From positions 1,364,001 to 1,428,000 of the forward strand of contig NZ_CP082205.1 in assembly GCF_019856455.1 (NCBI RefSeq): a stretch of DNA of 64,000 nucleotides. Reading direction: 5' to 3'. Positions within the stretch are counted from its first letter, which is position 1. Every line of letters starts with the position of its first letter. The DNA is from Streptococcus suis. Lineage in GTDB: Bacteria; Bacillota; Bacilli; Lactobacillales; Streptococcaceae. Of the stretch, positions 6,266 to 10,426 are shown one piece after another. A program made the translations under genes and the position numbers. The notes beneath the pieces were generated by a model that did no database searches, was not told the origin of the DNA, and was given only the letters and a program-made list of their open reading frames with translations.

Positions 6266-6748
6266 GAGTTGCTTCAAATAATCATTTGCCTCTTTTCTGT
6301 AGGTAAATATAAAAATATTCTTGTCCTTATATATGGATAGCAGATTGAAAATATTGGGGCGGACCTGCGTTCGAAAATTCTTTACAAACTCTAATAATTC
6401 TTCATCGACAGTCATCGAAACCCACGGTATATCCACTCTCGGTTTGCCAACACGACTGTATAGACCTTCCACGCACACTGCTTCTGGGTAATCTAAAAAT
6501 AGTATCGTATCACAAGCCGCCATTCGAAGTTTATAAGTCCCCCTATAATTACCATCAATAATCCACTCTTCTTGCCTTAATACTTCCTCTTGACGAGCTT
6601 GAAAAACTTCTCTAGCAACTGTTGTCTTGTCCGGTAACCAGTTTAACTGATCCAAATGATAGAGGGGCAATCCTGTAATTTCTTTCAATTTCAGTGAAAA
6701 GGTCGATTTTCCAGCACCAGGGCAACCAATAATCATTACTTTCTTCAT
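6254..6748 (-). CDS. P-loop small-molecule kinase-like protein (topology-modulation/FlaR-like family)
   Basis: This 164-aa P-loop NTPase carries GCPGAGKS at residues 8-15. The YHLDQLNWLP and WIIDGNYR motifs are typical of the adenylate-kinase-like family often annotated as a DNA topology modulation protein. Substrate and physiological role are not known. Its ATG overlaps the stop of the upstream GNAT gene by 4 bp (ATGA), so the two are translated together. The 3' end lies in the glnQ terminator. Confidence 0.75.
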   Translation of the reverse strand: MKKVMIIGCPGAGKSTFSLKLKEITGLPLYHLDQLNWLPDKTTVAREVFQARQEEVLRQEEWIIDGNYRGTYKLRMAACDTILFLDYPEAVCVEGLYSRVGKPRVDIPWVSMTVDEELLEFVKNFRTQVRPNIFNLLSIYKDKNIFIFTYRKEANDYLKQLKKP

Positions 6749-7236
6749 ACTGTTAACCTATAGGACCAACCTTTCTCAGTCTTTTCAACAGCTTCAAAGC
6801 CACATTTCTCAAATAGTTTACGGGAGCCCGTATTCCAGTCATAAATTTCTTCGACAAGTATTTCCTCAAGACCCACTTCCCTTGCACGCTCGATCATTCG
6901 CTGTAATACCTTAGTCCCGATTCCCTTTTTCCAATACCGCTTATCTCCAATGGCAATGGCAAAATCATCTGCAAACAGCGTCACATCACCAATTGGGATA
7001 AACTGATCGTCTTCAAAAATTTCAATAAAGTAACATTCGCCATTTTTAGACAAATAATCATACATACGATTGAGCAAGTCAAGACTATAACGTTCTTTAT
7101 CGCCATCAACAAGCCAGACCAATTCCAAATCTTGGTGCCATTCAAAAGCAAAATCATGCTGACCATCATACCGACGTAAACGGACTTGTTTGTCTATTTC
7201 TAAAATATCTGCTTGCTTAATTCCAGTGATTGCCAT
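6745..7236 (-). CDS. GNAT-family N-acetyltransferase
   Basis: This 163-aa protein has the acetyl-CoA-binding segment KRYWKKGIGTKVLQRM and the C-terminal NTGSRKLFEKCGF motif. It resembles RimJ/AacA4-type GNAT enzymes that modify small molecules or proteins. The acceptor is unknown. A GAGAGGA ribosome site precedes the ATG. It is the first gene of a two-gene operon with the P-loop kinase. Confidence 0.8.
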   Translation of the reverse strand: MAITGIKQADILEIDKQVRLRRYDGQHDFAFEWHQDLELVWLVDGDKERYSLDLLNRMYDYLSKNGECYFIEIFEDDQFIPIGDVTLFADDFAIAIGDKRYWKKGIGTKVLQRMIERAREVGLEEILVEEIYDWNTGSRKLFEKCGFEAVEKTEKGWSYRLTV

Positions 7237-7315
7237 TTCGGATCCTCTCTCATTTACAATACGTTCATTTTAACATACATCTCTATCAATATCAATAAAT
7301 GTTATAGCACGTTAA

Positions 7316-7344
7316 TTGACAAGATTTTATCAAAATGCTATACT
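7316..7344 (+). promoter_or_regulatory. Promoter of the ABC-F leader
   Basis: TTGACA (7316-7321), a 17-bp spacer and TATACT (7339-7344), with TG before the -10: a near-consensus strong promoter. Transcription from it must pass the attenuator before reaching the ABC-F gene. Confidence 0.85.
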
Positions 7345-7370
7345 GAAATAAATAAAGCATGCGAGGTAAG

Positions 7371-7518
7371 GAGAAATGGACAATAACAAGTAAACTCAAT
7401 CTAAGTTCTATACTTATTTAGTAGTTTTCTTGCGTCCATTTTTCTGTTTCCTCTATTCCTTGAATAGGGTCTTTTTGAGCAGATTTCGACACACTACTAA
7501 ATAGGTAGTGTGTTTTTT
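7371..7518 (+). promoter_or_regulatory. Transcription attenuator of the ABC-F gene
   Basis: The leader contains four paired elements. Stem 1 pairs 7371-7381 with 7434-7444 (11 bp, one G-U) and covers the leader-peptide start. Terminator 1 pairs 7451-7458 with 7462-7469, followed by TCTTTTT. Terminator 2 pairs 7490-7497 with 7505-7512, followed by a T-run to 7518. The antiterminator pairs 7411-7424 with 7494-7507 (14 bp, one G-U) and destroys terminator 2. The 7411-7424 strand sits in the loop of stem 1, so stem 1 and the antiterminator compete. A ribosome stalled on the leader peptide would favour read-through. Confidence 0.75.
7376..7393 (+). CDS. Leader peptide MDNNK of the ABC-F attenuator
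   Basis: A five-codon ORF (MDNNK, stop TAA) follows GAGGT (7363-7367) and AAGGAG (7368-7373). Very short leader ORFs upstream of ABC-F resistance genes act as ribosome-stalling sensors. Its start lies inside the first arm of the leader hairpin, so a stalled ribosome would keep that hairpin open. Confidence 0.65.
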   Translation: MDNNK

Positions 7519-7535
7519 CTTGTAAAGGAGGCCTT

Positions 7536-9068
7536 ATGCTACTAGCCACTCAACACCTAACCCTCGACCATCAAAAAGATTTGAGAAATCTGGTTCATGA
7601 CCTAAACCTCATTGTCAACCCTAGCGATAAAATAGCTATCATCGGCGAAGAAGGAAATGGAAAATCCAGTCTATTACTCACCTTGATGGATTCAACTCTT
7701 GTCGCCGACTACCTACTCATATCAGGCAGCATTCACCGATATTTTCACTCGCCAGTCTACATTCCCCAAGGTCTTCCATTGGAAATGGCAGAGCTAACCT
7801 TGAACGACTACTTCTTCGGAGATATGGACAGTGACATTGATTACCGCCTACTCTACCTCTATGCTGAGCAGCTCCAGTTTAACAGCGAACGATTTGCCAG
7901 TCAACAATTGATTGGAAGCCTGTCAGGTGGCGAAAAATTAAAAATTCAGTTAATCAAATCTCTAGCAACTCCATCTGATATTATTTTTCTGGATGAGCCG
8001 TCCAATGACTTGGATTTAGATACCTTACTTTGGCTTGAAAACTACATCATTACTAGTCCTAAAACCATTCTATTTGTTTCCCACGATGAAGACTTTCTTA
8101 GCAGAACAGCTACAAAAATCATTCACCTAGAATCTGTTAAAAAGAAAACACTTGCACAGACTAAGGTTGAAGAACTAGATTACCAGGATTACGCATTGGG
8201 ACGCCATCAAGCTTATCAGAAGCAGGTCCAGCAAGCTCGGAACGACAAAAAAGAATTTGACAAAGCCATGAACAAGCACCTACGTCAAAAATCACAGGTT
8301 CGTCATACCTTGCTCAACACCCATGATGCCACACTAGGACGGCTCATAGCCAAGAAAATGAAGAATGTCTTATCACGTGAAAAACGCTATGAAAGAATGA
8401 AGGAAAATCTTACACAAGTTCCTTTTCATGAAGATGCCATTTCCCTCTTCTTCTCAGACATTTCACCACTACCAGCTAGAAAACAAGTGCTTCACTTAGA
8501 AAACTTCCAATTAAAGGTTGACGAACGACTACTCGTTCAAAACATCCACTTCAACTTAAATGGACAAGAGAAAATTGGCATCATTGGACAAAATGGAATT
8601 GGTAAATCCAGCTTTCTAAAGATCATCTATCAGAAACTCAGGCAACGAGCAGATATAAACTTGGGCTACATGCCCCAGCACTATACAGAAGTCCTTGATG
8701 AGCCTAACACTCCACTTGATTTTTTATTAGAAAATGGCAATCGTGAGCAGGAACAACTTATCTTGACCCATCTAGCCAGTCTGCAGTTTACGCGACAAGA
8801 AGTTCATCACAAGATCAGTGAACTTTCGGGGGGACAAAAAGCCAAGTTACTCTTGTTAAAAATGGTTCTTGAACAAGCCAATTTTCTCTTATTAGATGAA
8901 CCCAGTCGAAACTTCTCTCCCACTTCTCAGCCATATATTCGTCAATTATTTTCCGATTATCCAGGTGGTTTGGTATGCGTATCACACGACAGACGCTTTT
9001 TGAAAGAAGTTTGTCAAAGAATCTATCGACTAACTGAAAATGGACTGGAAGAACTAGAACAGATATAA
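7536..9068 (+). CDS. ABC-F ATPase, probable ribosome-protection (antibiotic resistance) protein
   Basis: Two nucleotide-binding domains lack any membrane segment. Domain 1 has GEEGNGKS (37-44), LSGGE (129-133) and DEPSNDLD (153-160). Domain 2 has GQNGIGKS (351-358), LSGGQ (430-434) and a divergent DEPSRNFSP (454-462) instead of DEPTNHLD. The basic interdomain linker (about 200-310) is the part that reaches into the ribosomal tunnel in resistance ABC-Fs. The protein is 510 aa, with AAAGGAGG 4 nt before the ATG. The attenuator upstream supports an antibiotic-inducible role (lincosamide/streptogramin/pleuromutilin type is a family-level guess). Which drug is recognised cannot be read from sequence. 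Confidence 0.85.
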   Translation: MLLATQHLTLDHQKDLRNLVHDLNLIVNPSDKIAIIGEEGNGKSSLLLTLMDSTLVADYLLISGSIHRYFHSPVYIPQGLPLEMAELTLNDYFFGDMDSDIDYRLLYLYAEQLQFNSERFASQQLIGSLSGGEKLKIQLIKSLATPSDIIFLDEPSNDLDLDTLLWLENYIITSPKTILFVSHDEDFLSRTATKIIHLESVKKKTLAQTKVEELDYQDYALGRHQAYQKQVQQARNDKKEFDKAMNKHLRQKSQVRHTLLNTHDATLGRLIAKKMKNVLSREKRYERMKENLTQVPFHEDAISLFFSDISPLPARKQVLHLENFQLKVDERLLVQNIHFNLNGQEKIGIIGQNGIGKSSFLKIIYQKLRQRADINLGYMPQHYTEVLDEPNTPLDFLLENGNREQEQLILTHLASLQFTRQEVHHKISELSGGQKAKLLLLKMVLEQANFLLLDEPSRNFSPTSQPYIRQLFSDYPGGLVCVSHDRRFLKEVCQRIYRLTENGLEELEQI

Positions 9069-9095
9069 AAAAGAAAAATGGCACACACGCCAAAT
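9068..9095 (-). terminator. Weak terminator after metY
   Basis: A short TGGC/GCCA stem at 9079-9092 is followed on the reverse strand by an almost unbroken T-run. It lies between the convergent ABC-F and metY genes. Confidence 0.4.
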
Positions 9096-9145
9096 TTCCT
9101 TTTATTTTTTCATAAAGAATGAAGCCATGCTATTCGGTTCACAAC

Positions 9146-10426
9146 CTATAATTTATCAAGAGCAAGTTGCAAATCTTCTAGCAAATCATTGATATTTTCA
9201 AGACCAACAGATAGGCGGATTTGATTTGGTGTGACACCAGCAGCAAGTAAATCTTCCGGAGCTAACTGAGCGTGCGTAGTTGTAGCTGGATGAACTACTA
9301 GTGATTTAGCATCGGCAACGTTTGCTAGATTAGAAAAGATTTCCAAACTATCAATAACCTTACGCGCCTCTTCCGCTCCGCCTTTTACTTGGAAAGAGAA
9401 AATAGATCCAACACCTTTAGGCAGGTACTTATCCGCCAAAGCCTTATAAGGACTATCTGGAAGTGATGGATAATTGACCGACTCTACCTGAGGATGACTA
9501 AGTAAAAAGTCAACAATTTTTTCAGCATTAGATACATGACGCTCTACACGGAGAGACAAGGTTTCTAACCCTTGCAAAAGCAAGAAGGCGTTGAATGGAG
9601 AAAGGGCGGCACCTGTATCGCGAAGTAATTGTACACGAACTGCTACAATAAATGCAGCTGCACCAATATCACGAGTATAACTAATGTTATGATAGCTTGG
9701 ATCTTCTTCAACAAATTGCGGAAACTTACCAGATGCCGCCCAATCAAACTTGCCGCTATCGACAATCACACCGCCAATGGTCGTACCATGCCCACCGATA
9801 AACTTGGTTGCTGAATGGACGGCAATATCAACACCATGAGAAAATACATTAATCAAATATGGAGTTGCGAAGGTATTATCTGAAACAAGCGGGATGTGGT
9901 GGTTGTGTGCAATTTCTGCTAATTTTTCAAGATTAGGAATATTGATAACAGGATTTCCCAAGGTTTCAATAAATACCAGTTTTGTATTATCTTTAATCGC
10001 AGCTTCTACCGCTTCAAAATCATCAATATCTACAAAGCTTGTTGTAATACCATAGCGAGGAAGGGTTTCTTTGAATAGGTTAAAAGTCCCACCATAGAGT
10101 GTCGTTGCCGCCACAATGTGATCACCAGCATGCGCTAATGCTAGAATAGTGTATGTGATGGCTGCCATTCCTGAAGAAGTGGCCAAGGCACCAATCCCAC
10201 CTTCTAAGGCTGCTACACGATTTTCAAAAGTAGAGACAGTCGGATTCGTGATACGAGTATAGATATTCCCCGGTTTACGTAAAGCGAATAAATCTTCTGC
10301 TTCTTGAGCATCTTCAAATACATAGGAAGTGGTTTGATAAATCGGTACTGCGCGTGATTTTGAAGCAGAATCAACTTCTTGTCCAGCATGGAGTTGAAGG
10401 GTTTCAAATGAAAATTCTCTAGTCAT
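9146..10426 (-). CDS. metY: O-acetylhomoserine/O-acetylserine sulfhydrylase
   Basis: This is a PLP-dependent Cys/Met-metabolism enzyme that makes homocysteine (or cysteine) from the O-acetyl amino acid and sulfide. The 426-aa length is normal for the MetY subfamily. The PLP lysine lies in SATKFIGGHGT. The GNIYTRITNPT and SSGMAAI motifs are present. It is monocistronic, with RBS aaaggagt. A perfect MET box about 80-95 bp upstream indicates methionine-responsive control. Confidence 0.93.
   Translation of the reverse strand: MTREFSFETLQLHAGQEVDSASKSRAVPIYQTTSYVFEDAQEAEDLFALRKPGNIYTRITNPTVSTFENRVAALEGGIGALATSSGMAAITYTILALAHAGDHIVAATTLYGGTFNLFKETLPRYGITTSFVDIDDFEAVEAAIKDNTKLVFIETLGNPVINIPNLEKLAEIAHNHHIPLVSDNTFATPYLINVFSHGVDIAVHSATKFIGGHGTTIGGVIVDSGKFDWAASGKFPQFVEEDPSYHNISYTRDIGAAAFIVAVRVQLLRDTGAALSPFNAFLLLQGLETLSLRVERHVSNAEKIVDFLLSHPQVESVNYPSLPDSPYKALADKYLPKGVGSIFSFQVKGGAEEARKVIDSLEIFSNLANVADAKSLVVHPATTTHAQLAPEDLLAAGVTPNQIRLSVGLENINDLLEDLQLALDKL

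Follow-up and report, generated by a model that had tools for sequence, protein, structure and literature searches.

The window analysed here is a stretch of 64,000 nucleotides from Streptococcus suis (contig NZ_CP082205.1, positions 1,364,001 to 1,428,000 of the forward strand), and the positions given below count from its first letter. On its plus strand it carries the gene of a 510-residue ABC-F ATPase (7536-9068), which an NF000355 match and a structural model mark as ribosomal-protection-like, with the ribosome binding site AAAGGAGG at 7524-7531. The protein reaches none of the NCBIfam cutoffs of the curated resistance families Msr, Lsa, Vga, Sal, OptrA and CplR: its best score is that of NF000355 (291.6 bits, cutoff 380), and further scores are those of CplR (228.1, cutoff 780), Vga (196.8, cutoff 725) and Sal (191.6, cutoff 725). 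Nearest to its predicted model are VmlR2, VgaL and VmlR, the identity to VmlR being about 25% in the structural alignment. Upstream of the gene lies a promoter at 7316-7344 (TTGACA at 7316-7321, a 17-nt spacer, TATACT at 7339-7344), which with 11 of 12 consensus positions and a TG extension is as near to consensus as a preliminary description of the locus had claimed, and from which we infer a transcript start at about 7351. Each of the 11 loci from S. suis (L001-L011) retains its TTGACA. Promoter-like sites in 6900-9600 are as numerous as shuffled sequence predicts (7 found, 6.7 expected), so that the leader promoter stands out by its quality alone. On the minus strand, another such site (TTGATA, 17 nt, TAAAAT, at 7267-7295; 10 of 12 positions and a TG extension) precedes a divergent acetyltransferase-like gene at 6745-7236.

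The leader between promoter and gene contains, as described before, a short upstream open reading frame (uORF) of five codons, MDNNK; it runs from the ATG at 7376-7378 to the TAA at 7391-7393 and is led by a Shine-Dalgarno region (GAGGTAAGGAG, 7363-7373), whose GAGGTA is invariant in both alignments made (A1, 24 sequences; A2, 30 sequences). Folding places the start of the uORF within the 5' arm of a long hairpin, H1 (7370-7445), with an outer stem 7370-7381/7434-7445 followed by 7387-7390/7429-7432; the stem that holds the start codon has a probability of 0.60 in a transcript ending at 7440 and of 1.00 once 7450 has been made, which bears out the proposed hairpin over the uORF start. The segment 7372-7440 is more stable than expected (z -3.2; 1 of 200 shuffles as stable), and so is the leader as a whole (z -5.6; 0 of 200). 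Downstream, a sequence pattern identifies the intrinsic terminator T2 with its U-tract (7488-7519), whose hairpin at 7488-7514 has 11 pairs if those closing into the U-run are counted; the scan returned four terminator-like sites against 1.8 expected. Duplex search and nascent folding both link the two regions through an antiterminator, with its 5' strand at 7411-7425 and its 3' strand at 7493-7507, the latter overlapping the 5' arm and the loop of T2. The 14 base pairs claimed for 7411-7424/7494-7507 are found, one of them a G-U, and can be extended to 15 by 7425-7493; the duplex exceeds what 200 shuffles give (z -3.4, p 0.005). The 5' strand had been placed in the loop of H1, which is true of part of it, although another part belongs to the inner stem. 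By raw count, one candidate NusG pause motif of the pattern TTNTTT, an element of the vmlR leader discussed below, occurs between the uORF and T2 (TTATTT, 20 nt past the stop codon, within the antiterminator strand).

Nascent folding of the window leader makes these pairings mutually exclusive. Without a ribosome, H1 and T2 form with a probability of 1.00 and the antiterminator with 0.00. When the transcript is masked through 7403-7407, as a stand-in for a ribosome at the end of the uORF, the antiterminator rises to 0.98-0.99 and T2 falls to 0.01-0.02 at transcript ends 7514-7520, which agrees with the earlier claim that the antiterminator breaks T2. The exclusion is weaker with smaller masks (through 7390-7399), which yield 0.53-0.79 for the antiterminator and 0.21-0.47 for T2 at the same transcript ends. 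Once the transcript reaches 7535, T2 is favoured again (0.75-0.80 with large masks, 0.97-0.99 with small ones); the polymerase must therefore have passed by then, as in an attenuator.

Between the two antiterminator strands lies another hairpin followed by a U-tract, T1 (7451-7475), weak and terminator-like by pattern and folding, with eight pairs at 7451-7469 of which three are G-C (-6.0 kcal/mol). The preliminary description had counted it as the first of two successive terminators. Both hairpins exist, but T1 is not relieved: because it sits between the strands, the antiterminator is unable to break it, and its probability goes from 0.11-0.30 in ribosome-free transcripts to 0.84-0.97 with a ribosome on the uORF. 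An extra hairpin with a U-tract between the uORF and T2 is found in some lineages only. Folding and patchy occurrence thus speak against the idea that T1 is a second, conserved terminator which the switch relieves. As modelled, T1 probably forms the apical hairpin of the antiterminator and perhaps acts in pausing; were termination at T1 efficient, the switch would fail. The minimum-energy fold also pairs a candidate anti-Shine-Dalgarno strand (7464-7476) with 7525-7537, a weak candidate in that 47 of 500 shuffles match the duplex energy. The ABC-F ribosome binding site itself is paired with a probability of 0.99, against a shuffle mean of 0.80 (5 of 200 shuffles as high). For topological reasons, the pairing of 7464-7476 with 7525-7537 could not coexist with the antiterminator.

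An ortholog of the ABC-F gene (E<=1e-80) is found in 250 of 284 Streptococcus genomes. Ninety leaders were compared, that of the window plus those of 89 among the 250 genomes (mainly the closest ones, with near-duplicates skipped), and 88 of them have the motif-led short uORF. The commonest peptides are MNN (42), MKN (15), MDNNK (12), MYKKSIA (5) and MDSNK (4), followed by MDNKK (3), MDK and MRN (2 each), and MYNNK, MDNNE and MDTDK (1 each). The motif is missing from L048 and from L076, a fragment of 339 nt at the edge of its contig. In L048, which shares 79% protein identity, the leader seems to have had its 5' half swapped for unrelated sequence, while the antiterminator (TTTGGTGG), T1 and T2 (CTACCAAA) are retained with both strands changed. 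No close plasmid copy turned up in the plasmid collection searched, where 2481 records match, all below 60% identity.

The 88 motif-bearing leaders fall into 24 sequence clusters, each represented below by one member. A long-range hairpin over the uORF is predicted in all 24, with the start codon paired at a probability of at least 0.5 in 20, and T2 is present in 24 by a looser rule and in 22 by a stricter one (not in L089 and L094). The strand that pairs best with the T2 arm and loop is located downstream of the uORF, as a rule in the 3' part of H1. Taken singly, the antiterminator duplex is significant (p<=0.05) in 12 of the 24, and the Fisher combined p is 1e-13, for clusters that are related rather than independent. 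The pairing is kept while both strands change, as in UUUAGUAG/CUACUAAA, ACCAGUAGG/CCUACUGGU, UUGGUUGG/CUACCCAAUC and GAUAGA/UCUAUC. Exchanging strands between representatives is a less telling test: of the 24 own antiterminator duplexes, only two outdo every one of their 23 swaps and four (L054, L055, L077 and L089) are weaker than the average swap, in part because the same strand type recurs in many lineages. For the arms of H1, the corresponding figures are four and three of 24. RNAalifold, run on 30 H1 segments aligned with MAFFT, returned zero consensus pairs, the arms being out of register, and for this reason structure was judged sequence by sequence. L054 and L055 have leaders of 359-365 nt with an MNN uORF, a greatly enlarged H1 and a non-significant pairing test; in L055 an antiterminator-like strand lies more than 100 nt past the uORF stop.

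Beyond the close relatives, an order-wide sample gave an ortholog (E<=1e-100) in 93 of 395 genomes and 14 of 80 genera. Thirty-four leaders were read (33 new ones and L076; L173 was left out), 27 from other families and 7 streptococcal. Automatic uORF finding chose wrong ORFs in many rows of these distant relatives, and 14 of the 34 were picked by eye for the pairing test: 11 of the families f2 and f4, where uORFs such as MYTI, MIII, MLTI, MYLI and MNII occur, and three divergent streptococci. The uORFs TTG-ATC-AAT-TAA and GTG-ATC-AAG-TAA belong to two divergent streptococci. The antiterminator duplex reaches p<=0.045 in 13 of these 14 hand-picked leaders (z down to -7.4), including 10 of the 11 from other families; the test was negative in L152 (p 0.59). 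No such leader was seen by eye in L150, L163, L164 and L170. In two Globicatella leaders (L014, L015) the uORF, MMIQ, makes up one side of a long hairpin with a U-run immediately behind it; such a layout would be a version with a single terminator, blocked by the ribosome itself.

The masked folding was extended to these leaders. Under the ribosome mask, T2 drops below 0.3 in 13 of the 24 Streptococcus representatives and in 8 of the 14 further leaders, and stays above 0.3 in the other 11 and 6, where kinetic control would therefore be needed. At the moment when the loop of T2 has just been made and with the ribosome present, the T2 arm is paired upstream at a probability of at least 0.5 in 37 of 38 leaders (the exception is L152); in 7 of the 38 this pairing is non-discriminating, because it is also seen without a ribosome.

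A known system to which this arrangement can be compared is the vmlR leader of Bacillus subtilis, where a Met-Ile-Asn uORF lies inside an anti-antiterminator hairpin, accompanied by an antiterminator with a pause hairpin (SL-2) at its apex, a terminator and a hairpin that hides the ribosome binding site (Takada et al. 2022, PMC9226507). Lincomycin and retapamulin induce vmlR and are expected to do so by stalling ribosomes at initiation. The mechanism is proven in detail for vmlR, as had been assumed for it. The window leader shares with it the SD-led tiny uORF within an anti-antiterminator hairpin, the antiterminator and the intrinsic terminator before an ABC-F gene (T2 being recognised here by its sequence pattern alone), and T1 resembles SL-2 in its position at the antiterminator apex (PMC9226507). 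Unlike the vmlR uORF, that of the S. suis group has five codons, and the helix hiding the ribosome binding site, an element of vmlR, has the weak candidate counterpart mentioned above. We thus consider it very probable that the window leader senses ribosomes and attenuates transcription in the way the vmlR leader does, a likeness of mechanism from which descent from a common ancestor does not follow. The earlier interpretation seems mostly right: anatomy, masked folding and the two-sided sequence changes agree with the ribosome-sensing switch as previously proposed, except for T1 as a terminator relieved by it.

In the scheme that we infer for stalling, drug class, termination and induction from the computed elements, their exclusive pairing and their conservation, the five codons would be translated in the absence of drug and the ribosomes would leave, so that H1 could close over the uORF and hide the antiterminator strand; T2 would then form and transcription would stop before the ABC-F gene. 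A drug freezing the ribosome at initiation or on the first codons would hold H1 open, the freed strand would capture the loop and 5' arm of T2 while the 3' arm is still to be transcribed, and, with T2 blocked, the RNA polymerase would read into the ABC-F gene. By analogy, the drugs would be of the lincosamide, pleuromutilin and streptogramin A class. Other ABC-F leaders are said to work along similar lines: in the term-seq work of Dar et al. in 2016, ribosome stalling on the uORF of the lmo0919/VgaL leader reportedly relieves termination before the ABC-F gene, and an oral microbiome was reportedly treated too, which might include oral streptococcal leaders. Streptococci also have msr(D), a mobile gene of another ABC-F family. 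In its leader, stalling on a uORF counters termination before the ABC-F gene through a macrolide-specific elongation arrest, which the passage on msr(D) in PMC9226507 calls analogous, and probably not homologous, to vmlR.

That last example raises the question of what the ribosome would respond to. An arrest specific for the nascent peptide, as in macrolide leaders, with stalling only on the MDNNK chain, would fit the fact that MDNNK is the commonest uORF of S. suis (7 of 11 named loci). However, the other four loci differ (MDNKK in two, MYNNK and MDNNE in one each), the peptide changes freely across the genus, and in vmlR the variants MDN and MDK, in the experiments given for that leader, were at least as active as MIN and MRK was less so (PMC9226507), to be compared with the MIN-, MIK-, MDK-, MRN- and MNN-type uORFs of the streptococcal leaders, of which MDK, MRN and MNN, like MDNNK, suit the vmlR series; we regard peptide-specific arrest as quite improbable. 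An attenuation in which the leader peptide acts as a sensor of tRNA charging with Asn, Lys or Asp meets even less favour, and seems to us extremely improbable: Asn codons are frequent (MNN, MKN, MRN, MDNNK), but MDK, MYKKSIA, MYTI, MIII and MYLI share no residue beyond Met, and the controlled gene encodes an ABC-F ATPase and no biosynthetic enzyme. Given that the uORF peptides vary so much (MNN, MKN, MRN, MDK, MDNNK), it is the position of the ribosome, rather than the peptide, that is probably sensed, as far as these sequences can tell.

Part of this leader already has a name in the pneumococcus. The Rfam family RF02436 (SpF43_sRNA), whose sequence includes AUGAACAACUAA, matches 4 of 10 other loci scanned, namely L101 (210-308), L103 (204-302) and L105 (279-377) at 114 bits and L081 (204-302) at 74, with a threshold of 70 that the remaining six do not reach; its 99-nt model spans the uORF and H1 of pneumococcal-type leaders with the same nested stems. 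The window leader (7300-7560) has no RF02436 match even at E<=5, only weak ones to bglG and three microRNA models, and the whole window has no Rfam match at gathering thresholds. F43 itself is a 99-nt, Northern-confirmed RNA of S. pneumoniae TIGR4 (1216148-1216246, plus strand), located between SP1281 and SP1282, and a strain deleted for it, handled as an sRNA mutant, was one of 15 assayed in mice (PMC3395615). SP_1282 is named an ABC transporter, ATP-binding protein (PMC4243769), and from this name, the Rfam match and the orientation, SP1282 appears to be the pneumococcal ortholog. The F43 entries of PMC3395615 list an sRNA and name neither the uORF, nor the antiterminator, nor a control of SP1282; F43, SP_1282 and ABC-F go unmentioned in the main text of Warrier 2018, as do F43 and ABC-F in Slager 2018. 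What is already known is therefore the vmlR-type mechanism and a pneumococcal form catalogued, albeit as a small RNA; the earlier statement that this leader was not described is only partly right, given that the window leader is unmatched by RF02436, but the mechanism is proven in vmlR and the pneumococcal uORF and H1 are RF02436.

Could the element act in trans on targets of its own, the ABC-F gene downstream being incidental? Rfam and the Mann 2012 catalogue, with its positive Northern (PMC3395615), treat it as an sRNA. Nevertheless, the 21-nt start region is single-copy in its own genome (allowing up to 3 mismatches), the element holds an SD-led ORF, and one of its strands pairs with the terminator in front of the gene that follows; a trans-acting role seems very improbable to us, judging from leaders that were all reached via the ABC-F gene. 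The Rfam label of SpF43 (Gene; sRNA) is probably wrong, and the element really the uORF/H1 part of an ABC-F leader, which gives this sRNA a testable identity; deleting F43 would remove the cis switch as well.

A subtler alternative concerns H1, which could itself be the main terminator, a ribosome on its 5' arm blocking termination directly and T2 serving as a second gate. At the end of the H1 3' arm, 20 of the 24 representatives have at least five T in the best 8-base window, where the composition of those same leaders predicts 11.1; in L103, the RF02436 match, at 99 nt exactly as long as F43, ends just past the U-run of H1 and 54 nt before T2, a sequence hint that the short RNA ends at H1; and the Globicatella uORF, judged by eye, is an arm of a U-followed hairpin. 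Against it, U's abound all along the window leader (0.78 of its positions pass the same T-window test), its U's at this site pair with the purines preceding the ATG, the end of F43 could result from trimming of a T2-ended RNA, and a conserved antiterminator requires T2 to matter. We find this alternative rather doubtful as the main account. Equally tentative, and short of an even chance, is a broader synthesis that would join three propositions: that an ancestral, order-wide switch accompanies one Lactobacillales ABC-F ortholog, that H1 is both terminator and anti-antiterminator, and that F43/SpF43 is the normal, aborted product of a drug sensor. Under such a reading, the peptide, the start codon (ATG, TTG, GTG) and the pairing sequences would have changed over time.

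Returning to the preferred vmlR-type attenuator, an intrinsic inducible response to ribosome-targeting drugs may be widespread among streptococci, commensals and pathogens alike, since 250 of 284 genomes have the ABC-F gene and 88 of 90 leaders the uORF motif, and it may be missed by tests done without induction. As for the pneumococcal locus, one of the differences listed between an encapsulated and a nonencapsulated variant of one isolate, the replacement of A by G at 61 bp before SP_1282 (PMC4243769), may fall inside the ABC-F leader.
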